DNA from: a virus
Virus record (IMG/VR): IMGVR_UViG_3300020462_000016
Coordinates: 1 to 40,462 of that record
Length of the DNA: 40,462 bases
Strand: one strand, 5' to 3'
In this document: piece by piece, positions 13,462 to 24,002 of the stretch
Numbering within the stretch: the first letter of the stretch is position 1
How the letters are laid out: each line of letters starts with the position of its first letter
Position numbers and translations under genes: made by a program
Notes under the pieces: model-generated
Seen by the model: only the letters and a program-made list of their open reading frames with translations
Databases searched by the model: none
Told to the model about the DNA's origin: nothing

Positions 13462-13607
13462 GAGTCTTCTTCCCACTCTGTGTCGTAATCATCAATCCAT
13501 AAGTCTTGAAGAAAATTAATTTCCATAGTATATTGAAGTTTATCTCTTAACCAAGAGTACATATCTCTTGCACAAAATCCAATCATAAAGTAAATTAATA
13601 TTTCCAT
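13458..13607 (-). CDS. Probable 49-aa membrane-anchored acidic protein
   Basis: A minus-strand frame of 49 residues in the gap before the right inverted repeat. It has a hydrophobic start ('MEILIYFMIGFCA'), then a charged, acidic tail ending 'DYDTEWEEDS'. Its stop overlaps the stop of the kinase gene in a tail-to-tail arrangement. No clear ribosome site is seen, so translation could be leaderless. The typical phage-like composition supports it. Confidence 0.5.
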   Translation of the reverse strand: MEILIYFMIGFCARDMYSWLRDKLQYTMEINFLQDLWIDDYDTEWEEDS

Positions 13608-13626
13608 AGTATAAGTATTTTATTGT

Positions 13627-13707
13627 ATCATACCCTGTATCCCCTATCAACAATCAAAAAGCATATAATTACACGCCAGGGGGGGTTATATTCTGACTCT
13701 TTCCAGG
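13627..13707. repeat. Right copy of the 80-bp inverted repeat
   Basis: This is the reverse complement of 1-80 with one extra G in a run of seven. It begins ATCATACCCTGTATCCCC and ends TTCTGACTCTTTCCAGG, taking in the first half of element B1. The two arms face each other across 13.5 kb holding the whole leftward operon and the first rightward operons. Confidence 0.95.
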
Positions 13708-13716
13708 TCCTTAATG
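13691..13716 (+). promoter_or_regulatory. Intergenic element B1: TTCTGACT-N12-TTAATG
   Basis: TTCTGACT is at 13691-13698 and TTAATG at 13711-13716, with exactly 12 bases between. AAATATAGATA follows. The element straddles the right end of the inverted repeat. Function unknown. Confidence 0.65.
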
Positions 13717-13844
13717 ACCATAAATATAGATAAATAGATACAGAATCAGGTATAAATCAGGGATCTGACGATAGATCTACCCGGTATTGTGACTATTTTC
13801 CAGGCCTTAATGAACTAAACATACTATATATAGTGGTATCAGGC

Positions 13845-13880
13845 CTACTGATCTGGATAGATCTGGCTGCGATCTGGGAA
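13845..13880. promoter_or_regulatory. GATCTGG cluster
   Basis: Three GATC sites occur within about 30 bases, each as GATCTGG, just upstream of promoter A3. GATC is the usual target of Dam-type enzymes such as the one at 8965, so methylation-sensitive binding is possible. No protein is known to bind here. Confidence 0.35.
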
Positions 13881-13899
13881 AAAAAAGATAATAAACTGT

Positions 13900-13928
13900 G
13901 TAACCCTTCTGCAAATGTGATAGTCTAA
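13900..13928 (+). promoter_or_regulatory. ECF-like promoter A3: GTAACC-N17-GTCTAA
   Basis: The boxes at 13900-13905 and 13923-13928 are 17 bases apart. They are followed by the common leader ACAACAAAGGAG and the ATG at 13953. Confidence 0.75.
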
Positions 13929-13952
13929 TAGGTACACAACAAAGGAGAATAA

Positions 13953-14132
13953 ATGTTAGACGCCGAATTTTATAAGGCTATAACCGGAGTAGAAAGCACA
14001 GAGTTAACCGGGGAAGAAGATCTGGACTGTGGTAACTGCTTTACAAGTATACCCAAAGAAGTATTGGTAGATGCAGGTGACATAGTCTTCCTAAGAGATT
14101 ATGAATGCGAAAGCTGCAACGAACCGTTTTAA
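13953..14132 (+). CDS. Small zinc-ribbon protein (59 aa)
   Basis: A 59-residue acidic protein with two CxxC pairs ('DCGNCF' and 'CESCNEPF') spaced like a treble-clef or zinc ribbon. A near-perfect AAAGGAG lies 6-7 bases before the ATG, behind promoter A3, so it is very likely expressed. The function is not recognised; similar mini zinc ribbons lie at 9689 and 21422. Confidence 0.75.
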   Translation: MLDAEFYKAITGVESTELTGEEDLDCGNCFTSIPKEVLVDAGDIVFLRDYECESCNEPF

Positions 14133-14141
14133 CCAGGGATA

Positions 14142-14163
14142 TCAGGGTCCACCAGGGCCCTGA
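14142..14163 (+). terminator. Hairpin after the zinc-ribbon gene
   Basis: TCAGGG (14142-14147) pairs with CCCTGA (14158-14163) just after the stop at 14132. There is no T-run. Element B2 follows within four bases, a hairpin-then-B order also seen at 19.6, 20.9 and 22.9 kb. Confidence 0.4.
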
Positions 14164-14166
14164 ATA

Positions 14167-14192
14167 TTCTGACTCTTTCCCAGGATTTAATG
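14167..14192 (+). promoter_or_regulatory. Intergenic element B2: TTCTGACT-N12-TTAATG
   Basis: TTCTGACT is at 14167-14174 and TTAATG at 14187-14192. It is the first of a tandem pair with B3. Confidence 0.6.
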
Positions 14193-14199
14193 AGTTAAG

Positions 14200-14225
14200 A
14201 TCTGACTCTTTTTGGGATCATAATG
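14200..14225 (+). promoter_or_regulatory. Intergenic element B3: ATCTGACT-N12-ATAATG
   Basis: CTGACT is at 14202-14207 and ATAATG at 14220-14225, followed by AGTATAGATAGATA. It repeats B2 33 bases downstream and lies 42 bases before promoter A4. Confidence 0.6.
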
Positions 14226-14266
14226 AGTATAGATAGATATATATGGTTAAATAATTAAAAAACTAT

Positions 14267-14294
14267 GTAACCCTTCTGTCATTCTGTAGTCTAA
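14267..14294 (+). promoter_or_regulatory. ECF-like promoter A4: GTAACC-N16-GTCTAA
   Basis: The boxes at 14267-14272 and 14289-14294 are 16 bases apart. They are followed by a GGAGGAGG ribosome site and the ATG at 14311. Confidence 0.75.
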
Positions 14295-14310
14295 TTAGGG
14301 AGGAGGAATT

Positions 14311-14454
14311 ATGACAAATACAGACATAATACACAATACTGCCATCATTTATGCCCAGAAGAAGGGTATGGAGATGCAAATTACAGAAGAACTATTACAG
14401 AAGATGGTTCAGGACCTGAAGTTACTTGGCCCTGAATATGGGATAGAACTATGA
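14311..14454 (+). CDS. Small hypothetical protein (47 aa)
   Basis: A 47-residue helical protein ('IIYAQKKGMEMQITEELLQK') behind promoter A4 and a strong GAGGAGG site. The stop overlaps the next start (ATGA), showing translational coupling. Family not recognised. Confidence 0.7.
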   Translation: MTNTDIIHNTAIIYAQKKGMEMQITEELLQKMVQDLKLLGPEYGIEL

Positions 14455-14645
14455 ATGAGAAGGATCTATTATATGATGTTTTCATAAATGCTATTGAAAA
14501 CTGTTATAACGAGAAAGATGATGCCCAGATCATAGAAGACGCAGAAAAGTTGTATCAAAAGTTAGCGAAGGTGATACAGACAGTCTTCTGGGACGAATGG
14601 GACGAAGAATACTTAATAGATGAGTTTGATGTAAAAAAACTCTAA
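14451..14645 (+). CDS. Small acidic hypothetical protein
   Basis: A 64-residue, strongly acidic helical protein ('DDAQIIEDAEKLYQKLAKVI', 'WDEWDEEYLIDEFD'). It is coupled to the 47-residue gene by ATGA. Small acidic proteins of this sort in phages sometimes mimic DNA, but nothing specific supports that here. Confidence 0.7.
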   Translation: MNEKDLLYDVFINAIENCYNEKDDAQIIEDAEKLYQKLAKVIQTVFWDEWDEEYLIDEFDVKKL

Positions 14646-14652
14646 AAAGTAT

Positions 14653-14680
14653 GTAACCATTTATGACGAGAGGAGTCAAA
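14653..14680 (+). promoter_or_regulatory. ECF-like promoter A5: GTAACC-N16-GTCAAA
   Basis: The boxes at 14653-14658 and 14675-14680 are 16 bases apart; the -10 is a GTCAAA variant. The ATG at 14686 is only 5 bases after the -10, so the transcript would be leaderless. Confidence 0.65.
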
Positions 14681-14685
14681 GTAGT

Positions 14686-14979
14686 ATGGACGAAAAAATA
14701 AAAGTAAATAATGTTATCGATAACTCAGATATGATAGCTGTTACTTGTGACATTGCTGACATGATTATGGATGCAAAATATCAAGGTGACCCAAATTTAT
14801 ATATGACCATTGTCGATGATGAAGGAACTTCTGAGTTTCTACCCGAGGCTCAAGAAGTATTCAATAGACTATATGACGAAGTTCAAGACCGAATAGCCAC
14901 AGCTTTCAACATTGAATTTGGTAAAGGAGACTATTGGATAAGCAAAATACTATTAAACACAAGCGAGAAGGAGATATAA
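14686..14979 (+). CDS. Acidic hypothetical protein
   Basis: A 97-residue acidic protein beginning 'MDEKIKVNNVIDNSDMIAV'. No family recognised. Its start lies right at the predicted transcription start of promoter A5, so leaderless translation is likely. The GAGAGGAG sequence overlapping the promoter could serve only on read-through transcripts. Its TAA overlaps the next ATG. Confidence 0.7.
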   Translation: MDEKIKVNNVIDNSDMIAVTCDIADMIMDAKYQGDPNLYMTIVDDEGTSEFLPEAQEVFNRLYDEVQDRIATAFNIEFGKGDYWISKILLNTSEKEI

Positions 14980-15260
14980 TGGCTGATTTGCAAACAATAA
15001 TCAAGGCTGTCCAAACAATGGAGGCTGACGATTTAAATACTGTAGTTACTGCAATTAAGGATAGAAGAGACTATCTAAGACTTGTAGAGCTCAGACAATT
15101 TAGCAAAGGTGATACAGTATCTTTTTCAGATAAATTTGGTAACCCTAAAACAGGGGAAATCATTTCTATCATGAAGAAGAACATAAAGGTCAAAGAGACT
15201 GATAGCTCAGTTACTTGGCACATTTCACCTAACTTTTTAACAGTTGTAGAGACTGTTTAA
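14979..15260 (+). CDS. Hypothetical protein with SH3/KOW-like C-terminus
   Basis: A 93-residue protein. The first 40 residues are helical ('TIIKAVQTMEADDLNTVVTA'). The rest reads like a small barrel ('FSKGDTVSFSDKFGNPKTGE', 'IKVKETDSSVTWHISPNFLT'), typical of SH3-like or KOW-like folds that bind RNA or protein. ATG 14979 (TAATG, GAAGGAG upstream) is preferred over 14934. It directly precedes the tRNA-like RNA region. Confidence 0.7.
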   Translation: MADLQTIIKAVQTMEADDLNTVVTAIKDRRDYLRLVELRQFSKGDTVSFSDKFGNPKTGEIISIMKKNIKVKETDSSVTWHISPNFLTVVETV

Positions 15261-15261
15261 G

Positions 15262-15480
15262 GATTATCAATCACCTTGATAATGCTGAGTAGTTCTAGGG
15301 GCGAGAGCCCCTAGTTCTTAAGATTTATGGGGGCAAATGGTAAGTGGATCGTTTGATGCTGCGCATTTAACAATTCAAACTCGGGTTCGATTCCCGATGC
15401 CTCCACTGTGAAGGGTAGGACGAGAGGAACCTTCGGGTGATAAAATTTCCAGATGATCTGGACATTCAAAGTCTCTTTCA
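15262..15480 (+). ncRNA. Structured RNA region around a tRNA-like element
   Basis: This 225-base gap has no gene but five helices. ATTATCAA/TTGATAAT is at 15263-15283. A perfect CTAGGGGC-GAGA-GCCCCTAG hairpin is at 15295-15314. The tRNA-like fold is at 15329-15405. The perfect hairpin CCAGAT-G-ATCTGG lies near 15450-15462. A closing TGTGAA/TTCACA brackets the part after the tRNA-like fold. It probably belongs to the transcript from promoter A5 and may be processed. Structure was read by eye only. Confidence 0.55.
15329..15405 (+). tRNA. Alanine-type tRNA-like RNA (tRNA-Ala(UGC) or tmRNA-like domain)
   Basis: This 77-base element has a 7-bp acceptor stem GGGGGCA/TGCCTCC whose third pair is G-U. 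The discriminator base is A and there is no encoded CCA. The T-arm is perfect: TCGGG, loop TTCGATT, CCCGA. G3-U70 plus A73 is the alanine identity set. The rest is not canonical. An imperfect arm with TGC at its tip has C, not U, before the anticodon. Alternatively a 6-bp helix GTTTGA/TCAAAC abuts the T-arm, as P2 does in tmRNA. The D-stem is weak. The T-arm and acceptor are certain; which fold is real is open. Confidence 0.6.
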
Positions 15481-15501
15481 CATAAATTTAAATAAAACTA
15501 T

Positions 15502-15529
15502 GTAACCCTTCTTCAAAGAAGGAGTCAAA
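15502..15529 (+). promoter_or_regulatory. ECF-like promoter A6: GTAACC-N16-GTCAAA
   Basis: The boxes at 15502-15507 and 15524-15529 are 16 bases apart. The spacer contains CCTTCTT-CA-AAGAAGG, an inverted repeat overlapping the promoter. Confidence 0.65.
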
Positions 15530-15550
15530 GTAACGAGGAAAGGAAAAATT

Positions 15551-15739
15551 ATGGCGATGAGTAACGCAACAGAAATATCACGAGTTGTTTTGGTGGTAAG
15601 TCACCCTGACAAATTTGATGTATTAACTGACATATTAGATGACCTAAGCAGAGCTAAAAACTTTGATAGAGCCATTATTGACTATGACAGTCAAAATATG
15701 TGCAGAGTAAATACAGAAGGAGAGGTAGAACTTGGATAA
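15551..15739 (+). CDS. Small hypothetical protein (62 aa)
   Basis: A 62-residue protein with a ferredoxin-like alternation ('ISRVVLVVSHPDKFDVLTDI', 'FDRAIIDYDSQNMCRVNTEG'). It starts at ATG 15551 or at the ATG two codons later, behind AAAGGAAAAA. It overlaps the next start by 8 bases. No family recognised. Confidence 0.7.
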   Translation: MAMSNATEISRVVLVVSHPDKFDVLTDILDDLSRAKNFDRAIIDYDSQNMCRVNTEGEVELG

Positions 15740-16004
15740 GTTATATTATGTCAAGTACTCACAGGAGTCTGAGGCTTATGTAAAAGCTAGTTCGTCTCAA
15801 GAGGCTGTAGATTATATTACTGAACTAACTGAAAATGGCGGTGGCAGCAATATGAACTCAGTTCGTTTGAACGAATGTGGCTGGTATGTAGAGGAAGAAC
15901 TTGGTGAGCTTAAGAAGCTCGATGATGATACAGAAGATTATGCTTCACATGAGGCCGATGATAGGTACTTTAGTGAAGGTGACTTCGGACTGTATTGGGA
16001 TTAA
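15732..16004 (+). CDS. Acidic hypothetical protein with TTG start
   Basis: A 90-residue protein beginning 'MDKLYYVKYSQESEAYVKAS', a beta-rich opening typical of small phage proteins, with an acidic second half. The likely start is TTG 15732, inside the upstream gene and behind GGAGAGG. No better ATG lies near. Function unknown. Confidence 0.65.
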   Translation: MDKLYYVKYSQESEAYVKASSSQEAVDYITELTENGGGSNMNSVRLNECGWYVEEELGELKKLDDDTEDYASHEADDRYFSEGDFGLYWD

Positions 16005-16020
16005 TTATGAGGAGGAATAG

Positions 16021-16125
16021 ATGTTTATAGGTTTATTAGATGAATGGCTTCAAGAGAAAGCACGAAAAGCAGGAAAGAAACCAAAGCGAAAACCTCCTCG
16101 TAAGAAAGGTTATTATAAGATCTGA
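16021..16125 (+). CDS. Mini-protein family member 1 (34 aa, MFIGLLDEWLQEK...)
   Basis: A 34-residue frame with an excellent GAGGAGG site. It has a hydrophobic-amphipathic head (MFIGLLDEWLQEKARK) and a very basic tail of Lys, Arg and Pro. Two similar mini-proteins lie at 21045 and 22808, all sharing the M-(F)-I-G-(L/I)-L-D..L.(K/E)E head. Its stop codon TGA is part of the CTGACT core of element B4. It may bind nucleic acid or membrane; function unknown. Confidence 0.7.
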   Translation: MFIGLLDEWLQEKARKAGKKPKRKPPRKKGYYKI

Positions 16126-16145
16126 CTCTTTTCAGATCATTAATG
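16120..16145 (+). promoter_or_regulatory. Intergenic element B4: ATCTGACT-N12-TTAATG
   Basis: CTGACT is at 16122-16127 and TTAATG at 16140-16145. It overlaps the stop codon of the mini-protein gene. Confidence 0.6.
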
Positions 16146-16232
16146 GTAATAGAACCAGGTGAGCTAAGTAAAAAACACCACCCTTAAAGGGAGTTTGCAC
16201 AATGGACAACACCTAAGTCCTTTACCATTTTT
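16142..16232 (+). terminator. Long inverted-repeat terminator candidate before promoter A7
   Basis: AATGGTAA (16142-16149) pairs with TTACCATT (16222-16229), followed by TTT. Within it CCCTT/AAGGG form a small hairpin and AACACC is repeated. It may end the upstream transcript or be a short structured RNA. Confidence 0.4.
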
Positions 16233-16244
16233 CTAAAAAACTAT

Positions 16245-16273
16245 GTAACCTTTTTGTCTTATCGAGTGTCTAA
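16245..16273 (+). promoter_or_regulatory. ECF-like promoter A7: GTAACC-N17-GTCTAA
   Basis: The boxes at 16245-16250 and 16268-16273 are 17 bases apart. It serves the YubB-like gene at 16314. Confidence 0.75.
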
Positions 16274-16313
16274 TATATGAGGCCCGAAAGGGAAAGCAAT
16301 ATAAGGAGGCATA

Positions 16314-16967
16314 ATGCCAAATTACTGTGATAACTATATACAACTTGAAGGTGATGTTGATGTCATCAGAAAGTTAGTAAAAGACAACACAATGAAATAC
16401 GCTAGTTGGCAAACTAACGATGTAGAAGTCGATAGCTTTGACCTAACTATGATGAGACCTACACCAAGGGTTCTTGACCAAATAACAAGTGGTGCAATGA
16501 CACACGAAGGTGTAACACTTAGCAATTGGGTATACAGAAACGCTGAAGGCGAATTTGTTGACCAAGACATAGAGAATAGTAAAGATGACAGTCTTACAAT
16601 TGTTCCTATATCTTATAGAGAAGGTGAATTTCCAAACGATACAAAAGTTCTTACTGAAGAAGGTAAGAAGATTTTTGCAGAGTTTGGTGCTAGGGATTGG
16701 TATCAGTGGAGGTTAAACAATTGGGGAACCAAGTGGGTAACTCCTACTCCTATCGATGAAGTTCACGAAACTGAGTTAATCAATCTTAGTAACGATAAGG
16801 AAAGCTTAGCGATTGAGTTTGCAAACCAATCAGCTTGGGGACCTCCTTACGAATTGATTTCTTATATTTGTAAAACTTACGACCTCAGAGGAAGTTGTAG
16901 GTGGCATGAAGAAGGTGGTAATGCTGATTGGGGACACTTTGATAACAAAGGTGAACTAGTTAGTTAA
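16314..16967 (+). CDS. Api92/YubB-like ferredoxin-fold protein
   Basis: A 217-residue protein with the Api92/YubB layout. It opens with 'MPNYCDNYIQLEGDVDVIRK', where the family has MPNWC.N....G. The central 'WYQWRLNNWGTKWVTPT' and the late 'FANQSAWGPPYELISYICKT' are the other family landmarks. The fold is ferredoxin-like; the role is unknown, though the family is common on phages and plasmids. It starts behind AAGGAGG and has its own ECF-like promoter, with a hairpin right after the stop. Confidence 0.8.
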   Translation: MPNYCDNYIQLEGDVDVIRKLVKDNTMKYASWQTNDVEVDSFDLTMMRPTPRVLDQITSGAMTHEGVTLSNWVYRNAEGEFVDQDIENSKDDSLTIVPISYREGEFPNDTKVLTEEGKKIFAEFGARDWYQWRLNNWGTKWVTPTPIDEVHETELINLSNDKESLAIEFANQSAWGPPYELISYICKTYDLRGSCRWHEEGGNADWGHFDNKGELVS

Positions 16968-16977
16968 TTTTATAAGT

Positions 16978-17013
16978 TTGTAAAGGTGGGTGCCAAGACA
17001 CTCACCTTTGCAA
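16978..17013 (+). terminator. Hairpin after the YubB-like gene
   Basis: Arms of 15 bases (TTGTAAAGGTGGGTG and CACTCACCTTTGCAA, two mismatches) enclose CCAAGA, 10 bases after the stop. The T-run is absent. The next gene's ribosome site follows, so it may be a processing or stability hairpin rather than a full terminator. Confidence 0.5.
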
Positions 17014-17032
17014 TTAACAAGGGGGAAGTTAA

Positions 17033-17365
17033 ATGAAAGATGTACATGAATTACCTAAAGATATAAAAGAGTTTCTTGTAAGAGAAATTCCAAACTTTAG
17101 GAAATACAATCCTAGTACTCTGCCTTCGGGTAAAGATATATGGGATTTGTATGAGGATTATGTCAAAGAACTATGGTATTGGTATAAAGAATACCAGAGA
17201 AGCGAACAGCCAACTCAATACGACAATGCCTGTGAAATGGCCGGTATGGGAAGGCAGTGGGCAATAATGTGCGACAGCTGCAAAGACAATTTAGAAATTG
17301 TTTATAAAGCTGATGAAGTATTGTTCTGTAGTTCTGAAGACTTTTACTCAGAATATTCTGACTAA
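17033..17365 (+). CDS. Hypothetical protein with C-terminal Cys pair
   Basis: A 110-residue protein, helical and aromatic in the first 65 residues ('DLYEDYVKELWYWYKEYQRS'), with a CxxC-containing end ('MCDSCKDNLEIVYKADEVLF', then C). It may bind zinc. It begins behind AAGGGGGAAG and has no ECF-like promoter of its own, so it is transcribed with the YubB-like gene. Not recognised. Confidence 0.7.
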   Translation: MKDVHELPKDIKEFLVREIPNFRKYNPSTLPSGKDIWDLYEDYVKELWYWYKEYQRSEQPTQYDNACEMAGMGRQWAIMCDSCKDNLEIVYKADEVLFCSSEDFYSEYSD

Positions 17366-17371
17366 ATCAAG

Positions 17372-17548
17372 GGGTTTAATGGTTTAAGGTCGTAAGATCA
17401 TAATCGTAAATACCTCCTTGGTTGCTTATGGTTGGGGAGGCCACTAGAGGAACTAACTCTAATTCACGGGGAGTTAATGTACGCTGTTAACAGTACAGGT
17501 TCCGAGGATTACCACGGGTTTACCCGTTGTGGCCAATCCAATTTTTTT
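17372..17548 (+). ncRNA. Structured 3' region or RNA ending in a strong terminator
   Basis: About 180 bases without a gene. Helices seen are TGTAC/GTACA with an internal GTTAAC, GGAAC/GTTCC, and CCTCC with GGAGG. The end is an intrinsic terminator (17506-17548): GGATT-A-CCAC...GTGG-CC-AATCC, then seven T. This is a long 3' UTR of the 110-residue gene or a released RNA. No promoter lies directly upstream. Confidence 0.5.
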
Positions 17549-17558
17549 ATAAAAGTAT

Positions 17559-17587
17559 GTAACCTTTTAGGAGGAGATGAAGTCTAA
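17559..17587 (+). promoter_or_regulatory. ECF-like promoter A8: GTAACC-N17-GTCTAA
   Basis: The boxes at 17559-17564 and 17582-17587 are 17 bases apart, directly after the terminator. It serves the operon beginning at 17615. Confidence 0.75.
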
Positions 17588-17614
17588 ATAGTACAGGCAA
17601 AACAAGGAGAAGAA

Positions 17615-17851
17615 ATGTCTAACAAACACGAGATAATCGGAAAGTTCACACTCAGATTTGATGAGGCAGATTTAGGTGATGAATTTTGGGAGGCTCACGA
17701 TAAAGCTGATAAGGACCAAGTAGGGTTCTTTACTGAGGCACTTGATATGGAAATAGGTATGTGGATATCACACCTTTTTGGTGGTAATGTTCCTGACATA
17801 CAATTCCTACAACATAGTTGTATCAAGGAAGTCAAGGAGGAAATCAAATGA
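17615..17851 (+). CDS. Acidic hypothetical protein (78 aa)
   Basis: A 78-residue acidic protein ('FTLRFDEADLGDEFWEAHDK') with a C-terminal helix. Clear promoter A8 and AAGGAG support it. The stop overlaps the next ATG (ATGA). Function not recognised. Confidence 0.7.
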   Translation: MSNKHEIIGKFTLRFDEADLGDEFWEAHDKADKDQVGFFTEALDMEIGMWISHLFGGNVPDIQFLQHSCIKEVKEEIK

Positions 17852-18003
17852 TTGACTTCGTAGTAAAGCGATTGCTTGAAATTATTGGCGAAGGTGGTAC
17901 TGAGGAAAATTATGCTAGAGAAGAAATTCTTAGCATAATACATACTCTTGAAAACCAATGGGGATATGAAGTACCTAATATGGCATACCTAGAGGAGGAA
18001 TAA
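17848..18003 (+). CDS. Small hypothetical protein (51 aa)
   Basis: A 51-residue acidic helical protein beginning 'MIDFVVKRLLEIIGEGGTEE'. ATG 17848 is chosen because it overlaps the upstream stop and follows GGAGGAAATC; a frame from 17818 would lie in the upstream gene. It ends in TAATG with the next gene. Confidence 0.7.
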   Translation: MIDFVVKRLLEIIGEGGTEENYAREEILSIIHTLENQWGYEVPNMAYLEEE

Positions 18004-18158
18004 TGGCCACTTTATGGGTGAATTTCAATTTTGAAGTTCCATTTGATGTGGATGACCAAGAAGAATTACATGAAAGTGTAATGGATTGGTTCCAGGAAAT
18101 TAGAGAAGACAACTTACCTTATTATGAGGTAAGTAAAAAATCTAAAGACGAAGAATAA
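18003..18158 (+). CDS. Small hypothetical protein (51 aa)
   Basis: A 51-residue acidic protein beginning 'MATLWVNFNFEVPFDVDDQE', third gene of a tightly coupled trio (TAATG, GAGGAGG). The beta-then-helix pattern suggests a compact fold. Function unknown. Promoter A9 begins 15 bases after its stop. Confidence 0.65.
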   Translation: MATLWVNFNFEVPFDVDDQEELHESVMDWFQEIREDNLPYYEVSKKSKDEE

Positions 18159-18172
18159 ATTTTAGAAAACCT

Positions 18173-18201
18173 GTAACCTTTTTAGGTTGCAGGTAGTCTA
18201 A
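18173..18201 (+). promoter_or_regulatory. ECF-like promoter A9 with embedded hairpin; serves ncRNA 1
   Basis: The boxes at 18173-18178 and 18196-18201 are 17 bases apart. The -35 sits in the dyad ACCTGTAACC...GGTTGCAGGT, which follows the previous stop and could form a 3' hairpin. No gene but a structured RNA follows. Confidence 0.75.
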
Positions 18202-18207
18202 GTAGTA

Positions 18208-18530
18208 TAGGGCTTACTAGCTAAGTCAATATATTAGAGAGGGTCGTAAAGCGGTTCATAGTCTGATATCGAAACTACAGTTACTCACGAAGAAATAGAG
18301 GGCAATCTCTTGATAATGTTTTTTCCTAGGGCAAAAACATTTGACAGACATCCTAACTAAATTCACGAAACGGAACAGTATCGAAATGAAACTACCTGTC
18401 GCAGACCAAAATCCTAACGGGTTAGTTCGAACTAAACTCTTGATATATTGACTTAGGTAGTAAGTTCGTAGCATATTGGGTTACAAAGTAATTATAATAA
18501 AGCAGACTGCACCCTAGTATGTTACGAAGT
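18208..18530 (+). ncRNA. Candidate structured noncoding RNA 1 (~320 nt)
   Basis: This gene-free stretch lies directly behind promoter A9. Arms at 18213-18234 and 18443-18464 pair over 22 bases with one mismatch, starting about where the transcript should begin. Inside lie a 9-bp hairpin (AATGTTTTT/AAAAACATT), GACAG/CTGTC, and repeated TATCGAAA and TCACGAA motifs. A second helix, TTCGTAGCATA (18465-18475) with TATGTTACGAA (18518-18528), follows head-to-tail. No credible start/ribosome-site pair is present. It matches no RNA class that I know. Confidence 0.7.
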
Positions 18531-18542
18531 TATGATCTAGAG

Positions 18543-18568
18543 TTCTGACTCTTTACCAGGCCTTAATG
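18543..18568 (+). promoter_or_regulatory. Intergenic element B5: TTCTGACT-N12-TTAATG
   Basis: TTCTGACT is at 18543-18550 and TTAATG at 18563-18568, followed by ATATAGATACCAGG. It lies just after ncRNA 1. Confidence 0.65.
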
Positions 18569-18673
18569 GTATATATAGATACCAGGACCTGGAAGCAGCT
18601 GGATCTGCCGAATCTTGGCCAGATCATAATCTATATCTTGACTTTACATCTAGATTAATTTTTTAAAAAACAT

Positions 18674-18702
18674 GTAACCTTTTTGCTTCTAAGAGTGTCT
18701 AA
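18674..18702 (+). promoter_or_regulatory. ECF-like promoter A10: GTAACC-N17-GTCTAA
   Basis: The boxes at 18674-18679 and 18697-18702 are 17 bases apart. It serves the gene at 18728. Confidence 0.75.
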
Positions 18703-18727
18703 ATAGTACGCAACCAGAAAGGGTAGT

Positions 18728-19105
18728 ATGTTAAAAGACTTACAACCAAAAGACCAAAAAATTGTATATAACCATGATGGGTTATGTATTACGCATACCA
18801 AAGATAGTGCTCAAGCCATGTTAGAAAATGCAGGGTTTGTTGCTCTAGATATACCAAATTTAGTTGGTGCAACTATTGTTGATATCAATTATGAAAACAC
18901 TTGGTTTGATAGAGATGGCACTTGGGATTTGGATTGCTCAAATATTGTGGTTACCTTATTACTAAGAGATAAAACAACTAGGCGATGGGTTATACAAGCT
19001 GATGAGGAAAACAATAGAGGTGGTTATATTGGCGAATTCGATATGAATGGCGAGATGATAACCAATCCTAAAGAGGGTAAGAGGTACAGAGAGCTTCAAT
19101 CCTAA
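18728..19105 (+). CDS. Hypothetical protein (125 aa)
   Basis: A 125-residue protein, probably alpha/beta ('GATIVDINYENTWFDRDGTW', 'NIVVTLLLRDKTTRRWVIQA'). It starts behind AAAGGG and promoter A10 as a single-gene unit. Family not recognised; the beta-rich second half resembles small ligand-binding folds only in a general way. Confidence 0.7.
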   Translation: MLKDLQPKDQKIVYNHDGLCITHTKDSAQAMLENAGFVALDIPNLVGATIVDINYENTWFDRDGTWDLDCSNIVVTLLLRDKTTRRWVIQADEENNRGGYIGEFDMNGEMITNPKEGKRYRELQS

Positions 19106-19124
19106 AAAATATTTTAGAAACCCT

Positions 19125-19153
19125 GTAACCTTTTTTGGTTATGGGGTGTCTAA
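19125..19153 (+). promoter_or_regulatory. ECF-like promoter A11 with embedded hairpin
   Basis: The boxes at 19125-19130 and 19148-19153 are 17 bases apart. The dyad CCCTGTAACC...GGTTATGGGG includes the -35 and lies right after the previous stop. Confidence 0.75.
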
Positions 19154-19176
19154 TTAGTAAGCAACAAAGGAGAACT

Positions 19177-19593
19177 ATGGGGACAAGAAGTCTACATTAT
19201 TTCTACAGTTCCGAAAAGGAATTAGAAAAACAAGAGCCAACAGCTTGTATATACAGGCATTGGGATGGATACCTTGAGGGGGCAGGACTCGACATAAAAG
19301 AGTTTCTAGAAACCTTAAGAGATACAGATATGGACAGCCGATTTGGGGATGCTTCATATTTAGCATCTAAGTATCTAGTCTATTTGGCTCAAAACTTTGC
19401 AGGCGATTGGAAAGAAAATCCACTCGACTTTTTATCTGTCGGTATTATGCCGACTACTAAAGGTCTTGATGCTTGGCAAGATTACACATACCATTTTGTG
19501 TGTGAAGTTCAAGACAATGGACTTCCTAAGGTGGTATTTGATGGCTACAACGAGGAGAAAGAGGATTTATTTCTCTCTTTGCAAAAACTTTAA
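19177..19593 (+). CDS. Conserved-type hypothetical protein (MGTRSLHYFY..., 138 aa)
   Basis: A 138-residue protein opening 'MGTRSLHYFYSS', then 'CIYRHWDGYLEGAGLDIKEF'. I have seen this type in phages and bacteria (MGTRS..., Y.HWDGY.EG.G), but no function is known to me. ATG 19177 follows GCAACAAAGGAG; the longer frame from 19135 would begin inside the promoter. It is a single-gene transcription unit. Confidence 0.75.
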   Translation: MGTRSLHYFYSSEKELEKQEPTACIYRHWDGYLEGAGLDIKEFLETLRDTDMDSRFGDASYLASKYLVYLAQNFAGDWKENPLDFLSVGIMPTTKGLDAWQDYTYHFVCEVQDNGLPKVVFDGYNEEKEDLFLSLQKL

Positions 19594-19639
19594 CAACCCC
19601 TTGTTGTTAGTGGCTTGAGGGGGGAAACCCCCTCAAAGC
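19592..19639 (+). terminator. Double hairpin after the MGTRS gene
   Basis: AACAA-CCCC-TTGTT (19592-19605) is followed by TTGAGGGGG/CCCCCTCAA (19615-19636) with a tight GAAA-type loop, extended by GC pairs. No T-run. Element B6 follows after 8 bases. Confidence 0.55.
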
Positions 19640-19645
19640 TTTAGG

Positions 19646-19671
19646 ATCTGACTAATTCCCTGGTCTTAATG
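19646..19671 (+). promoter_or_regulatory. Intergenic element B6: ATCTGACT-N12-TTAATG
   Basis: CTGACT is at 19648-19653 and TTAATG at 19666-19671, then TGTATATAGATATAC. The usual CTCTTT is AATT here. Confidence 0.6.
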
Positions 19672-19713
19672 TGTATATAGATATACAGATCATGAAAAAA
19701 TTTTATTTTATAT

Positions 19714-19742
19714 GTAACCTTTTATAAATTCCTGGAGTCTAA
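19714..19742 (+). promoter_or_regulatory. ECF-like promoter A12: GTAACC-N17-GTCTAA
   Basis: The boxes at 19714-19719 and 19737-19742 are 17 bases apart, followed by AGTACGCAACAAAGGAG and the ATG at 19769. Confidence 0.75.
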
Positions 19743-19768
19743 GTAGTACGCAACAAAGGAGAAAAAAT

Positions 19769-20083
19769 ATGGGATATACAACAGCTATGAATGTTAGCCA
19801 AATATTAGGTCTTGAAGAAGGTCTAAAGGCTCATTTTAGAGGTAATTGTTATCCACCTATTCCTTTAGCTATGGTTCCTGTAGCTAAAGAAGTAATTGAA
19901 AATGTTGTACAAGGAGAATTAATGAGAGACTCTAGTTTCCTGGATATAATGATTCAATTACCAAAGATGGAAGATGGGTTCCAAATAACGCATAAAGGTA
20001 GTGACAAGGTCCGTACCGAAGATGCTTTATATGGTTTACATTTAGCAGCATTCGTTGATTCCATCTTAATGGAAGAGGAATAA
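19769..20083 (+). CDS. Hypothetical protein (104 aa)
   Basis: A 104-residue protein beginning 'MGYTTAMNVSQILGLEEGLK', mostly helical, not recognised. A single-gene unit with promoter A12 and a full AAAGGAG site. Promoter A13 with its hairpin begins about 15 bases after the stop. Confidence 0.7.
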   Translation: MGYTTAMNVSQILGLEEGLKAHFRGNCYPPIPLAMVPVAKEVIENVVQGELMRDSSFLDIMIQLPKMEDGFQITHKGSDKVRTEDALYGLHLAAFVDSILMEEE

Positions 20084-20101
20084 AATTATTTAAGATTCCT
20101 T

Positions 20102-20130
20102 GTAACCTTTTGGGGTTGCAAGGAGTCTAA
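20102..20130 (+). promoter_or_regulatory. ECF-like promoter A13 with embedded hairpin
   Basis: The boxes at 20102-20107 and 20125-20130 are 17 bases apart. The dyad CCTTGTAACC...GGTTGCAAGG contains the -35; its outer bases differ from A9 and A11 yet stay complementary. Confidence 0.75.
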
Positions 20131-20158
20131 TTATTACAAGCAACAAAGGAGTTCCTAA

Positions 20159-20413
20159 ATGGAATTAAAAGAGATGCCATTGAGTGATTTAGCTCAAATG
20201 GTTAGAGAAGATTGGGATAACCCACATTTTGGGGCGGTCCCATATTTAGATGCGATGGCAACTATGGAGTCTATAGAAGATAAATACTTCTTAGATGATG
20301 GAGATGACATTGTTATCTATTTTCTTGCTAATGCTCAAACCTGGCGCGGCGAAGTCGCTAGGAATGTTAAGAAGGAATTAAATAGAAGATTCCAGGCTAA
20401 CAAGGGCAAGTAA
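20159..20413 (+). CDS. Hypothetical protein (84 aa)
   Basis: An 84-residue protein ('MELKEMPLSDLAQMVREDW', 'IVIYFLANAQTWRGEVARNV') with a basic C-terminus. A single-gene unit behind promoter A13 and AAAGGAG. Family not recognised. Confidence 0.7.
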   Translation: MELKEMPLSDLAQMVREDWDNPHFGAVPYLDAMATMESIEDKYFLDDGDDIVIYFLANAQTWRGEVARNVKKELNRRFQANKGK

Positions 20414-20432
20414 AAAAAATTTAGATTTGTGT

Positions 20433-20460
20433 GTAACCTTTTCGGTTACACGCAGTCTAA
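20433..20460 (+). promoter_or_regulatory. ECF-like promoter A14 with embedded hairpin; serves ncRNA 2
   Basis: The boxes at 20433-20438 and 20455-20460 are 16 bases apart. The dyad GTGTAACC...GGTTACAC holds the -35, 17 bases after the previous stop. Confidence 0.75.
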
Positions 20461-20466
20461 GTAATA

Positions 20467-20705
20467 CAGGCAAAAAAAACATAGTGCGATTGTGTTGAAT
20501 GCGAAGGTCTTTAGGCTAAGGCATTGATACAGTTCTCAGAATGTTGACACATATAGTATATTTTAAGTTATCCAATGGCTCTAACTTAAGAAGGAGGTAT
20601 GGTTTATCACATTGAACACTACGCAGTGAATGTACGCTAAGCTCCACTAAAGTGGAATTAATCTTGCAAGATAAGATTTAGCTACGACACAGTCGCAGTA
20701 TGTTT
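20467..20705 (+). ncRNA. Candidate structured noncoding RNA 2 (~240 nt)
   Basis: A gene-free stretch behind promoter A14. CATAGTGCGATTGTG (20480-20494) pairs with CACAGTCGCAGTATG (20688-20702), with one mismatch and one wobble. Inside are TTAAGTTA/TAACTTAA, CATT-CACT...AGTG-ATG and a three-way element: GCTAA/TTAGC enclosing TCCACT-AA-AGTGGA and ATCTTGCAAGAT. The AAAGGAG and ATG of the next gene follow within 22 bases. It is therefore either a stand-alone RNA or an elaborate 5' leader. Confidence 0.65.
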
Positions 20706-20723
20706 TCAAGCAAAGGAGAAATT

Positions 20724-20900
20724 ATGGATAAAACAGTATTTTGGTCACAAGATGCAGACTTTGATAAAGAGTTCAAAGGTGGAATGTATGTTCGTTCCGA
20801 TTTGGGTAAGTCTTTTGCAAAGTGGAAGGACAATGTAAAAATTGTCGGCATCGCTATTGATGACTCAAATGAAGTTGAATTCATCGTTGATGAAAACTAG
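20724..20900 (+). CDS. Small hypothetical protein downstream of ncRNA 2
   Basis: A 58-residue protein beginning 'MDKTVFWSQDADFDKEFKGG', then a beta-rich end ('VKIVGIAIDDSNEVEFIVDE'). ATG 20724 follows AAAGGAG; a frame from 20700 would start inside the closing helix of ncRNA 2. Its ribosome site is just outside that helix, so RNA folding could control its translation. Confidence 0.7.
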   Translation: MDKTVFWSQDADFDKEFKGGMYVRSDLGKSFAKWKDNVKIVGIAIDDSNEVEFIVDEN

Positions 20901-20901
20901 A

Positions 20902-20917
20902 GTGGCCGAAAGGCCAC
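20902..20917 (+). terminator. GTGGCC-GAAA-GGCCAC hairpin
   Basis: A perfect 6-bp hairpin with a GAAA tetraloop, directly after the stop at 20900 and without a T-run. It precedes element B7. Confidence 0.5.
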
Positions 20918-20931
20918 ATCTGGTTATAAAG

Positions 20932-20957
20932 TTCTGACTCTTTTAGTGGATCTAATG
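20932..20957 (+). promoter_or_regulatory. Intergenic element B7: TTCTGACT-N12-CTAATG
   Basis: TTCTGACT is at 20932-20939 and CTAATG at 20952-20957, then CGATATAG. Confidence 0.6.
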
Positions 20958-21009
20958 CGATATAGCTTTAAGATCATTTACCAGATAACCAAAAAAATTT
21001 AAAAACTAT

Positions 21010-21038
21010 GTAACCAAACTAAAGAAAGGATAGTCTAA
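21010..21038 (+). promoter_or_regulatory. ECF-like promoter A15: GTAACC-N17-GTCTAA
   Basis: The boxes at 21010-21015 and 21033-21038 are 17 bases apart. The ATG at 21045 is 6 bases after the -10, implying a leaderless message. Confidence 0.7.
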
Positions 21039-21044
21039 GTTCGT

Positions 21045-21152
21045 ATGATAGGAATATTAGATATGCTGTTGAAAGAAATGGCAAAAAATAAAAAACAAAA
21101 AAAATTAGAAAATGATGTAACCAATATGGAGAAATCAAAGTCTAATAAGTAA
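21045..21152 (+). CDS. Mini-protein family member 2 (35 aa, MIGILDMLLKEMA...)
   Basis: A 35-residue frame with the shared head MIGILDMLLKEMAKN and a Lys-rich tail, similar to 16021 and 22808. There is no ribosome site; the ATG sits at the predicted start of promoter A15 transcripts. The following promoter, A16, lies inside this frame, so the last third may be translated promoter sequence rather than selected protein. Confidence 0.6.
   Translation: MIGILDMLLKEMAKNKKQKKLENDVTNMEKSKSNK
21117..21145 (+). promoter_or_regulatory. ECF-like promoter A16 inside a reading frame
   Basis: The boxes at 21117-21122 and 21140-21145 are 17 bases apart and lie within the mini-protein frame. It serves the KTSC gene at 21174. 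Confidence 0.75.
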
Positions 21153-21173
21153 GCAACTAAAGGAGTTGATTAT

Positions 21174-21425
21174 ATGTTCTTTAAAAGAGCAAGAATTTTT
21201 GGTAGTCCCAAAAGTTCGGTAATACAAACAATTGCTTATATAAGTGATTGGAAAGAGCGAAATTTATTCGTTACTTTTAACAGTGGAGCTACCTATAAAT
21301 ATAGTGATGTTCCATTTTCTCATTATAAGACATTGGCAAAAGTCAATAAGTCCGATGAGAGTTTAGGTAGTATCTTTAACGATACTATCAAAGGTAGTGG
21401 CTACGCTTATACAAGAGTTGTATGA
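21174..21425 (+). CDS. KTSC-domain protein
   Basis: An 83-residue protein that is one KTSC domain: 'SSVIQTIAYISDWKERNLFV', 'FNSGATYKYSDVPFSHYKTL', 'KSDESLGSIFNDTIKG'. The domain is a small fold found alone in phages and fused to bacterial stress or Lys-tRNA-synthetase proteins; its role is unclear. It starts behind AAAGGAG and overlaps the next gene by ATGA. Confidence 0.8.
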   Translation: MFFKRARIFGSPKSSVIQTIAYISDWKERNLFVTFNSGATYKYSDVPFSHYKTLAKVNKSDESLGSIFNDTIKGSGYAYTRVV

Positions 21426-21535
21426 GCGTTCCATTATTTGAGTGTGATGAGTGTTACAACGAATTCGCACCAGAAGAGGATTACCAAAAAATTTGTAATC
21501 CATGTGCCGATTTGGTTATAGCTAAATTAATTTAA
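21422..21535 (+). CDS. Mini zinc-ribbon protein (37 aa)
   Basis: A 37-residue acidic frame with two CxxC pairs ('CDECYNEFAPEEDYQKICNP', then C). It is coupled to the KTSC gene by ATGA, and promoter A17 starts 6 bases after its stop. Likely real on cysteine spacing and packing. Function unknown. Confidence 0.6.
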   Translation: MSVPLFECDECYNEFAPEEDYQKICNPCADLVIAKLI

Positions 21536-21541
21536 TTAGCT

Positions 21542-21570
21542 GTAACCTTTTCTGTACTTTTATAGTCTAA
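21542..21570 (+). promoter_or_regulatory. ECF-like promoter A17: GTAACC-N17-GTCTAA
   Basis: The boxes at 21542-21547 and 21565-21570 are 17 bases apart, followed by AACAACAAAGGAG and the ATG at 21597. Confidence 0.75.
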
Positions 21571-21596
21571 GTATTAGAGAACAACAAAGGAGAGAT

Positions 21597-21797
21597 ATGG
21601 AGTTCGCAAATAATGTTGAATTTACAGCATTTGTTATTATGGTTGGCTTAATAGGAGCTGTAGCTTTTATGGTCTTTAGTTCTATTCTTAATGATAGGAA
21701 AGAAAGACACCGCCAAACAGCTAGAGATTTGAGAGAGATTAAAACAAAACTTTCTCTTATTGAAAGTAAGCTTAAAAATCAAGTGAGTAGCTACTAA
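21597..21797 (+). CDS. Small single-pass membrane protein (66 aa)
   Basis: A 66-residue protein with one hydrophobic segment at about residues 9-29 ('FTAFVIMVGLIGAVAFMVFS'), then a charged helical, coiled-coil-like tail. It probably lies in the inner membrane with the tail in the cytoplasm. It forms a pair with the next membrane protein (TAATG). A holin or superinfection-exclusion role is possible but the usual lysis neighbours are absent. Confidence 0.7.
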   Translation: MEFANNVEFTAFVIMVGLIGAVAFMVFSSILNDRKERHRQTARDLREIKTKLSLIESKLKNQVSSY

Positions 21798-21925
21798 TGT
21801 GGCTACTACTTGACTTTTCTGGAAATGGAATATTTAACACTTTAGACATAATCCTAATATGGTGTTATGGAGTTATGGCTGTAGTGTTTTATAAAACTGT
21901 TATCAAAAAAGTTTTAGGTAAATAA
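21797..21925 (+). CDS. Tiny membrane protein (42 aa)
   Basis: A 42-residue frame coupled to the previous gene by TAATG. It has a hydrophobic segment at about residues 14-33 ('NTLDIILIWCYGVMAVVFYK') and a basic end. Two small membrane proteins under one ECF-like promoter suggest a shared membrane function. Function unknown. Confidence 0.6.
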   Translation: MWLLLDFSGNGIFNTLDIILIWCYGVMAVVFYKTVIKKVLGK

Positions 21926-21962
21926 TGTATCTATGTAACTGTATGAATTTAATTTATATTAG

Positions 21963-21990
21963 TTGCATAGTTAGATTGATTTATTATACT
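21963..21990 (+). promoter_or_regulatory. Sigma-70-type promoter TTGCAT-N16-TATACT
   Basis: TTGCAT is at 21963-21968 and TATACT at 21985-21990, 16 bases apart. Both hexamers and the spacing are identical to those at 23259-23286. It serves the gene at 22017. Confidence 0.75.
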
Positions 21991-22016
21991 GAAAGAAATA
22001 ACAACAAAGGAGAAAT

Positions 22017-22289
22017 ATGAATAACTTATACACAACAGATACTGTTGAAAAGCAAAGAAAAGAAATGGATAGAAAACTAGCTAACCATTACAACGCAAGT
22101 AATTGCGATGAAATGGAAAAGCCATTAGTTGAGTATCCAGAGTATTACACAAACAGCGAAGGTGTAATAATGGAGTTAGTTGAAGTAATTAAAAACACTT
22201 CAAAGAGCTGTCCAAAAAAACACAACAGTGATACAGCTGTTTATAAAATATTTGATGGAGCTTTAGGTTACGATAACCTAAGACTATAA
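22017..22289 (+). CDS. Hypothetical protein, paralogue A (CPKxHN...TAVYK)
   Basis: A 90-residue protein paralogous to that at 23465. Shared features are a similar N-terminus (NLYTTDTVEKQRKEM here), a central Cys and EKP, and a C-terminal block 'CPKKHNSDTAVYKIFDGALG'. The two conserved Cys and one His could bind metal, but the spacing is unusual. It has a sigma-70-type promoter instead of the ECF-like type, suggesting expression by host polymerase early in infection. Confidence 0.75.
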   Translation: MNNLYTTDTVEKQRKEMDRKLANHYNASNCDEMEKPLVEYPEYYTNSEGVIMELVEVIKNTSKSCPKKHNSDTAVYKIFDGALGYDNLRL

Positions 22290-22327
22290 AATAAACAAAG
22301 GACAAGAAAGAGTTAGGACCCAAAAGG

Positions 22328-22353
22328 TTCTGACTCTTTTCTTATGTCTAATG
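22328..22353 (+). promoter_or_regulatory. Intergenic element B8: TTCTGACT-N12-CTAATG
   Basis: TTCTGACT is at 22328-22335 and CTAATG at 22348-22353, then AAATATAGATAGAC. A CTGATCTTGACCAGATCA stretch follows. Confidence 0.6.
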
Positions 22354-22446
22354 CTAAATATAGATAGACATACCCCTATATGGATCTTGATTTTCTGATC
22401 TTGACCAGATCATAGGGGGTAGGCCAAAAAAAAAATAATTTTTTAT

Positions 22447-22474
22447 GTAACCTTTTAAAAGTATGACAGTCTAA
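22447..22474 (+). promoter_or_regulatory. ECF-like promoter A18: GTAACC-N16-GTCTAA
   Basis: The boxes at 22447-22452 and 22469-22474 are 16 bases apart. It serves the genes at 22506 and 22808. Confidence 0.75.
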
Positions 22475-22505
22475 TTCTATGTAGGCAAAAATAAAGGAGA
22501 TTATT

Positions 22506-22808
22506 ATGGCTATAACCGAACATGTAACTCGTGAACATTTTGTTCATAGGTTCATGACAATGCGACCAAATCAATTTAGTTATGGGGGCTTATCTGCTCT
22601 TTACGATTATTTGGACGATTTGAGCGAAGATATGCACAAAGACATTGAATTAGATGTCATTGCGATATGTTGTGAATATGCCGAGTACGACTCAATAGAA
22701 GAAGTACTAAAAGATTACGACCTAATAAAAGATAGGGAAGACCTTGAAGATAATACAGTTGTAATTGATATACCCAACGAAAAAAGTTTAATTATAGGGC
22801 AATTCTAA
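22506..22808 (+). CDS. Phage hypothetical protein (ALYDYLDDL / CCEYAEY type)
   Basis: A 100-residue acidic protein with 'GLSALYDYLDDLSED' and 'LDVIAICCEYAEYDSIEE'. This pattern recurs in small proteins of many phages, but its function is unknown to me. It follows promoter A18 and AAAGGAG. Its stop overlaps the ATG of the mini-protein gene (TAATG). Confidence 0.75.
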   Translation: MAITEHVTREHFVHRFMTMRPNQFSYGGLSALYDYLDDLSEDMHKDIELDVIAICCEYAEYDSIEEVLKDYDLIKDREDLEDNTVVIDIPNEKSLIIGQF

Positions 22809-22876
22809 TGATTGGTTTATTAGATTTGTTACTTAAAGAAAACGCAAGGCGAAAGAAAGAAAACAAAAATTCTTAA
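22808..22876 (+). CDS. Mini-protein family member 3 (22 aa, MIGLLDLLLKENA...)
   Basis: A 22-residue frame, MIGLLDLLLKENARRKK followed by ENKNS, at a TAATG junction. It matches the heads of the mini-proteins at 16021 and 21045. Recurrence of the same short amphipathic-basic sequence in three places argues that it is translated. Confidence 0.6.
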   Translation: MIGLLDLLLKENARRKKENKNS

Positions 22877-22902
22877 TTGTTCTTGTTGGGTATGAGACAA
22901 TA

Positions 22903-22944
22903 GCAAACCAGGGGGGCAGCAATGCTCCCCTATTTGCATTTTAT
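22903..22944 (+). terminator. Probable intrinsic terminator
   Basis: GCAAA-CC-AGGGG (22903-22914) pairs with CCCCT-AT-TTGC (22927-22937), followed by ATTTTATT. Element B9 starts at the end of this tail. Confidence 0.6.
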
Positions 22945-22969
22945 TCTGACTCTTTGGATCTACCTATGG
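22944..22969 (+). promoter_or_regulatory. Degenerate intergenic element B9: TTCTGACT-N12-CTATGG
   Basis: TTCTGACTCTTT is intact at 22944-22955, but the downstream half is CTATGG. The following 290 bases hold no credible gene, only AT-rich sequence and the next promoter. Confidence 0.45.
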
Positions 22970-23258
22970 AGAAGGCCTTTAGGACCTGGAGCAGTTTAGA
23001 TCCTGCTGATCCTCGAACATTTGTTCTGATCCCCTTATTGCAAATCATTTGCATTAATCAAAATATACAAAACCCTTTAATTCCTGGATTTTTACAAATA
23101 CCCTCTATTTGCCATTTAAAGCCCCTTGTAGAAGTTTTACCCCCCTTTAGCTGTTGGGTATGGAGAAGGACAGCATAGCCTCTTAGAAACGATTTAAAGG
23201 CATACAATATATAGTATGTCTGTATGAAAAAAAATATACCCTTTTTCTATATATAGAG

Positions 23259-23286
23259 TTGCATATAGTTCTCATATCTGTATACT
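23259..23286 (+). promoter_or_regulatory. Sigma-70-type promoter TTGCAT-N16-TATACT
   Basis: TTGCAT is at 23259-23264 and TATACT at 23281-23286. The hexamers and spacing are identical to those of the promoter at 21963. A TTG start lies 8 bases after the -10. Confidence 0.75.
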
Positions 23287-23294
23287 GATATTAA

Positions 23295-23450
23295 TTGGAT
23301 AACACAGAGCAACCGAAATCTGAAACCAAGAAGAGCAAGAAGAAATTCTTGAGAAGTGAAAAATTTACTCAACTGCTTTCACACAATAAGAAAAACTTAT
23401 TGAATGAAAATATTCAATATGGATATTTTCATAGAATAAGCAACCATTAA
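23295..23450 (+). CDS. Probable leaderless basic protein (51 aa, TTG start)
   Basis: A 51-residue frame from TTG 23295: 'MDNTEQPKSETKKSKKKFLR', Lys-rich, ending 'GYFHRISNH'. The start codon sits where the transcript from the adjacent promoter should begin, fitting leaderless translation. The stop lies just before the ribosome site of the 23465 gene. Without a homologue its status is moderate. Confidence 0.5.
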   Translation: MDNTEQPKSETKKSKKKFLRSEKFTQLLSHNKKNLLNENIQYGYFHRISNH

Positions 23451-23464
23451 CAAAGGAGAAAAAA

Positions 23465-23758
23465 ATGGAAACACTATTCAACACAGAGACTAGAGAAGAA
23501 CAGCAAAAAGAACTCAATGCGAAGAAACCATTTCACATTGACAACTTAGCTACTAGTTGCAACCACTTAGAAAAACCTGCCGACAATTTCGAGGAGTACA
23601 AAGAACACCCCGAATTAGGGCTTATGGTTCTTGATTATATAATCGAGAATAATTCTAAGCGTTGTCCGAAAATACATAATGGTAATACTGCAGTTTATAA
23701 GCAGTACAAAGGAGCTAAGGGGTACGACGATTTAGTATCCCTTAACACTCCGAGATGA
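23465..23758 (+). CDS. Hypothetical protein, paralogue B (CPKxHN...TAVYK)
   Basis: A 97-residue paralogue of the 22017 protein. It shares 'TETREEQQKELN', a central C..LEKP and the C-terminal block 'CPKIHNGNTAVYKQYKGAKG'. ATG 23465 follows AACAAAGGAG. It is transcribed from the same kind of sigma-70-type promoter as its paralogue. The duplication is old enough for much divergence, so both copies are probably in use. Confidence 0.75.
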   Translation: METLFNTETREEQQKELNAKKPFHIDNLATSCNHLEKPADNFEEYKEHPELGLMVLDYIIENNSKRCPKIHNGNTAVYKQYKGAKGYDDLVSLNTPR

Positions 23759-23983: not shown

Positions 23984-24002
23984 TTCTAATATAAAAAATT
24001 AA

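Follow-up and report, generated by a model that had tools for sequence, protein, structure and literature searches.

What does a virus make from a stretch of several hundred bases that follows a promoter-like sequence and holds no apparent gene? The question is raised by positions 18208–18530 of a linear virus record from the IMG/VR collection, whose full 40,462 bases (hereafter, the window) were analyzed. A first-pass annotation had described the stretch as gene-free, preceded by a promoter of its own and encoding a candidate new large structured RNA. An ORF scan of 18159–18727 found no plus-strand ORF of ≥40 aa, and none inside the RNA exceeds 36 aa; a minus-strand ORF of 72 aa at 18256–18474, inside the RNA region, is without support, and a protein gene at the locus was thus rejected. 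The promoter-like motif, TGTAACC-N17-GTCTAA, is indeed present on the plus strand (18172–18201; predicted start at about 18205–18210). It is one of 19 copies of TGTAACC-N15/17-GTC(T/A)AA in the window (8276–25624), all on the plus strand and all 5′ of genes or gene-free units. The motif resembles an alternative-sigma promoter, and its spacer is self-complementary in several copies.

The gene that follows the RNA has a separate copy of the promoter motif, and no terminator was found 3′ of the RNA in the window. A recurrent element, UUCUGACUCUUU-N8-UUAAUG, lies 3′ of the RNA on the plus strand (18538–18578) as one of ten copies in the window, where TTCTGACTCTTT-N8-TTAATG is found at 13692, 13788, 14168, 14201, 16121, 17357, 18544, 19647, 20933, and 22329. 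The element apparently folds into a small hairpin whose loop is conserved; most copies lie directly 5′ of a promoter copy, and it is also present in the related record G006 (see below).

The RNA had been proposed to be closed by a 22-bp helix with arms so long that a chance origin was judged very unlikely. An exhaustive search recovered the pairing of 18213–18234 with 18443–18464 (21 Watson-Crick pairs, one mismatch). The extent of the helix had to be revised, as with G-U pairs allowed it begins at about 18210, and 18210–18237 pairs with 18440–18467 at 27 of 28 positions. The best helix in 150 dinucleotide shuffles of the locus was 14 (Watson-Crick) or 18 (with G-U), and the best among 89 tiles of 450 nt over the window was 15, against 21 and 27 observed, so a chance helix was rejected. 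The 323-base region 18208–18530 has a fold z-score of −4.0 and is more stable than 100 of 100 shuffles; judged only by folding energy, the minus strand is equally stable (z = −4.1). An 11-pair second helix (18465–18475 with 18518–18528) was found as annotated, one of its pairs being G-U, and the two motifs noted as repeated were located at 18267 and 18379 (TATCGAAA) and at 18285 and 18363 (TCACGAA).

Comparison with known RNAs bore out the earlier view that the sequence fits none of GOLLD, ROOL, 6S, tmRNA, or an intron. There was no gathering-score match to Rfam 15 in the window, nothing at the locus up to an E-value of 5 except an insignificant SmY match, and no match in the homologues described below. 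Group I and group II intron models matched nothing in the window, the locus, or the homologues. ARAGORN called no tRNA in the window or in nine homologue loci, and no tmRNA, with its tRNA-like ends and tag reading frame, in the window. Elsewhere in the window, a tRNA-like stretch at 15330–15406 (GGGGGCA...GGGTTCGATTCCCGATGCCTCCA) has an odd anticodon region and no ARAGORN call, and adjoins a strong GC-rich hairpin.

To BLAST, 18208–18467 showed no convincing relative. A weak near-full-length nhmmer match (E = 0.12) was obtained in L125, a contig that combines the terminase type of the window with the helix cassettes described below; in its alignment to the window, loop motifs are shared and the closing helix differs in sequence. 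A profile built from this pair retrieved a third member, L115 (E = 1.2e-9), a scan with the motif common to all three gave nine stretches in eight contigs, and a covariance model recovered the full-length copy of one cut stretch, in G086. Homologues of the plus-strand stretch 18212–18470 (hereafter, domain 1; models R2 and R3) lie on eight other virus contigs and one contig assigned to an archaeal MAG. The conserved core and the closing helix are kept in all of them, the helix sequences being mostly unrelated, and the closing helix spans 23–33 positions in every full-length member examined.

A lack of compensatory changes in homologues had been set beforehand as grounds to refute this RNA. Such changes are present on both sides of 39 of the 61 predicted pairs in an alignment of eight members, the window among them, in which 89.1% of cells pair. 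All 500 shuffles fell below the observed values, and slid versions pair 35–43% of cells. Within the closing helix, 23 of 24 pairs have two-sided changes (84.7% of cells paired). Because the structure was derived from this same alignment, the most weight is carried by model R3, which was built without the window and finds 18212–18470 with 82.7 bits (E = 1.8e-19; next match 9.8 bits). We conclude that 18212–18470 almost certainly represents a real structured RNA family. The structured RNA proposed for 18208–18530 thus stands, and its limits change to a conserved domain at 18212–18470 and a second element that extends to about 18536. The family is common to uncultured marine phages and previously undescribed; no description of it was found in the open-access literature, a DNA search of named phages returned no detectable copy of the RNA in the collection searched, and the protein of the neighboring gene, used as a query, had no relatives.

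The anatomy of domain 1 is nested. From the outside in, the closing helix (plus-strand arms 18210–18237 and 18440–18467), conserved as a helix only, is followed by a short covarying helix (GUC/GAC in the window; CUC/GAG, ACC/GGU, and CCU/AGG elsewhere), inner pairs that are GCG/CGC in the window versus GUG/CAC in relatives, the core, and a variable apical arm. The core is nearly invariant. Its two plus-strand segments (alignments A5 and A6), strand A (GGGUCGUAAAGCGGUUCAUAGUCU..., 18241–18274) and strand B (GAAACUACCUGUCGCAGACC, 18388–18407), both read CAUAGU then GAAACUWCCUG in most members, and the TATCGAAA repeats fall within it. Read from the alignment, the core appears to be nearly two-fold symmetric. 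On the 3′ side is a fully covarying hairpin (18410–18423, plus strand) with a UAAC loop (UAAC, UAAA, or GAAA in relatives), two-sided changes in five of five pairs, and 100% of cells paired. It is followed by a palindrome (18424–18433, plus strand; AGUUCGAACU, or AGUUGCAACU in relatives) that is self-complementary in all members listed. This sequence, AGUU(CG or GC)AACU, does not vary apart from a double change in the window, after which it is still self-complementary.

The second helix has a different origin. A viral-contig scan with TAGGTAGN{0,5}YTYGTAGCAYAT returned at least 120 stretches, and most of those among the matches listed consist of a left arm, an insert of 23–279 bases, and a complementary right arm (hereafter, L/R cassettes). 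An alignment of 33 elements has 99.6% of cells paired and two-sided changes at 11 of 22 pairs. As these elements were partly chosen for pairing, the test was repeated on elements chosen by basal motifs only: in 24 non-standard distal arms, 10.3 of 12 positions are paired, compared with 6.9 (maximum 8.0) for shuffled partners (2,000 shuffles). Plus-strand arm positions that are not Watson-Crick comprise 574 G-U and 12 A-C combinations among the matches listed, indicating that the paired molecule is RNA of the plus strand. The inserts, with a mean folding z of −0.5 and both strands alike, are only slightly beyond shuffles and are therefore not claimed to be strongly folded. An antisense or guide role for them was rejected, since the loci compared held no matches except copies of the element and one 29-nt stretch. 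Rfam had no match in the 22 L/R loci scanned.

A model of these 33 elements (R1, without the window), searched unfiltered, placed 18454–18536 of the plus strand first (29.1 bits, E = 3.5e-4; next 14.2), and the second helix is therefore a diverged cassette (hereafter, domain 2). The basal block GUAGGUAGCUU/AAGCUAUCUAU is absent from domain 2; the basal pairs mismatch and only the distal block is kept, which makes it a diverged relative rather than a typical L/R member. The exact pattern from domain 2 was found in no other contig, the pattern TCGAAACTACAGTTNCT was found in 12 contigs sharing nothing beyond the motif, and the 21-mer GTAGGTAGCTTGTAGCACATA was absent from the GTDB species genomes searched. 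The two helices thus belong to two different element families, the second within a widespread cassette system. The window also carries an RNA module on the plus strand at 16157–16216 (GGTGAGCTAAGTAAAAAACACCACCC...), common to the cassette-array linkers of other marine phages (85–91% identity to L109, L188, and L193). Two further features recur in the arrays: linkers of L188, L186, L100, L210, and L175 contain a hairpin, AGTARGAG-[stem]-GCCCTGTT-[stem]-RACYGAAA, with an apparently covarying stem, and inserts of L216, L133, L173, and L120 contain a tRNA-like T arm (e.g., GGTTCGAATCC).

Inspection of the cassettes revealed that nearly identical flanks may enclose unrelated inserts. Among the matches listed, 22 of 43 element pairs with alike 60-base flanks have unrelated inserts, and 110 of 151 pairs with like inserts have unlike flanks. 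The swap takes in exactly what lies between the arms, as in L114 and L140, whose flanks are identical and whose inserts differ. At least two phage lineages carry the cassettes: one whose terminases are about 640 aa long, and the lineage of the window. In T4-type phages, PeSL cassettes are promoter or stem-loop cassettes tied to module shuffling; they differ from the present case, in which the closing helix is constant and the RNA insert inside it is exchanged. Such an element, a conserved long helix around RNA inserts that can be swapped, is unreported, and nothing found matched either the RNA family or the exchange of helix-bounded cassettes.

Relatives of the window have comparable units. 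G006 (IMGVR_UViG_3300025815_000021), with a terminase at 87% and much gene order in common with the window, has the same promoter motif at the corresponding position, followed by ~795 gene-free bases, 721 of which fold with z = −8.4. Its first bases close a domain over 19 positions of unrelated sequence, followed by helices of TAGGTAGCTTGTAGCACATA and TGTGTGTTACAAGCTATTTAT. A similar gene-free unit is present in G012, and copies of the TGTAACC promoter motif in both records precede roughly 550–800 gene-free, strongly folding bases. The window itself has a second large structured RNA domain on the plus strand (20466–20712; z = −3.89), behind the promoter copy at 20432 and closed by a 22-position helix (20476–20497 with 20685–20706), with a homologue in G012 (4416–4637; E = 1e-8). 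Despite its alike layout, this domain is placed outside the domain 1 family because the family model gives it no score above background. Many related contigs start at 25420–25494 of the window, possibly marking a genome end or a hypervariable junction.

The genomic contexts of domain 1 bear on whether it is a separate RNA or part of a message. Of the eight other virus records carrying domain 1, six encode a window-type terminase (59–65% identity), and in those six the RNA lies roughly 8–18 kb upstream of terL on the same strand. In L322 (4292–4525), a Red Sea contig binned as a Woesearchaeota MAG, the RNA is flanked by two opposite-strand genes and followed 28 bases downstream by an intrinsic terminator. 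The proteins of this contig did not match those of the other carriers, and its binning may be in error, the contig possibly belonging to a phage. The closest gene calls in L308 run antiparallel to the RNA, and the next gene in L125 and in L310 has a promoter-like sequence in front of it. These four contexts favor a stand-alone RNA over a leader. In L115 a possible ORF starts shortly 3′ of the RNA, which could therefore be a leader there.

We consider 18208–18536 to be probably a two-domain phage noncoding RNA with its own promoter that stands alone and serves as an early, trans-acting scaffold or decoy. Judged from sequence, a stand-alone transcript is likely, and the scaffold or decoy mechanism is put forward tentatively. 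Early transcription from its own promoter would give a stable, trans-acting RNA, in which the long helix would join the ends of the transcript and protect it. The core would display a nearly two-fold symmetric site for a putative protein, probably a dimer given that near-symmetry; alternatively, its partner may be the RNA itself, via the palindrome. Early in infection the RNA would serve as a scaffold or decoy in trans.

Long helices are typical RNase III-like substrates, and in the T7 early region the long helices of early phage transcripts are RNase III sites between early genes. The helix here could likewise be cut by an RNase III-like enzyme to separate and protect early mRNAs, a role in cis for mRNA processing or insulation. 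Consistent with this, most of the related L/R cassettes among the matches listed have neighbors running in one direction (79 of the 92 for which a gene was called on either side), and about a quarter of them end ≤21 nt from the next start codon. However, a processing site does not need a near-invariant 200-nt core, the flanking genes are antiparallel in L322 and L308, and in the window the RNA and the next gene have separate promoter copies. A T7-type cleavage site explains neither the conserved core nor the antiparallel contexts, and we regard this explanation as unlikely.

Assembly of the RNA with itself alone, as a homo-oligomer via the palindromic hairpin AGUU(GC or CG)AACU, is suggested by the invariance of that sequence, save for the double change in the window that leaves it self-complementary, and by the precedent of GOLLD, ROOL, and OLE, all of which oligomerize and of which GOLLD and ROOL come from phages (PMC12286853). 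On the other hand, the palindrome provides a single compensating event only, the same bases can form a plain 3-bp hairpin, and there is no sequence kinship with GOLLD, ROOL, or OLE, making such an oligomer a doubtful reading of the sequence. GOLLD, a large ornate phage noncoding RNA with marine examples and unknown function, is alike in having a conserved part plus a less conserved part (PMC12286853). It differs in length (many are >800 nt versus about 235 nt for the conserved domain here) and in often lying near tRNA genes, none of which was called near this RNA, which has no Rfam match. ROOL is likewise phage-encoded, large, and of unknown function (PMC12286853), and is unlike domain 1 in that no Rfam match was found here. 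Domain 1 resembles 6S RNA in its long terminal helix and its large internal domain, and in principle the phage RNA could also act on a host machine in trans; 6S, however, has one large bubble in a rod, whereas domain 1 has a branched junction and two small hairpins and gave no Rfam match. GOLLD, ROOL, and OLE (PMC12286853), together with marine and cyanophage motifs (PMC2864571), are the closest in kind and not in kinship.

A riboswitch or other 5′ leader controlling the next gene would account for a conserved core with covarying stems, and the ORF that begins soon after the RNA in L115 and the ORF that follows the second RNA of the window (20466–20712) fit this arrangement. The gene after the RNA nevertheless varies or runs antiparallel from member to member, neither an expression platform nor a terminator was found consistently, and promoter-like sequence separates RNA and gene in L125, L310, and the window, so we consider a leader improbable. 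An inverted repeat or MITE-like mobile element acting as DNA rather than RNA, to which the L/R cassettes bear some resemblance (they look like terminal inverted repeats around inserts that change, and the exchange takes in exactly what lies between the arms), is very improbable and was already disfavored, as the arm mismatches are of the G-U type expected for RNA pairing and the domain 1 arms are mostly unrelated between lineages yet complementary.

Returning to the two-domain RNA acting in trans, it is possible, at less than even odds in our judgment, that both domains belong to a combinatorial RNA system. A conserved core RNA (domain 1) would be joined with arrays of RNA domains, and the constant helices enclosing those domains would double as RNA handles and recombination boundaries, letting phages exchange entire RNA domains just as they exchange genes. 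The palindromic loop of the core RNA may allow it to dimerize, and the domains that are exchanged may act as decoys directed at host targets that change.

Large phage RNAs whose structure is strongly conserved are rare, and no role is known for them. The covariation of domain 1 is dense, and its structure is thus open to direct probing. The cassettes look like natural shuffling of noncoding RNA domains between phage lineages, with precise boundaries; such shuffling would add a new way for phages to exchange modules and would supply ready-made RNA domains.
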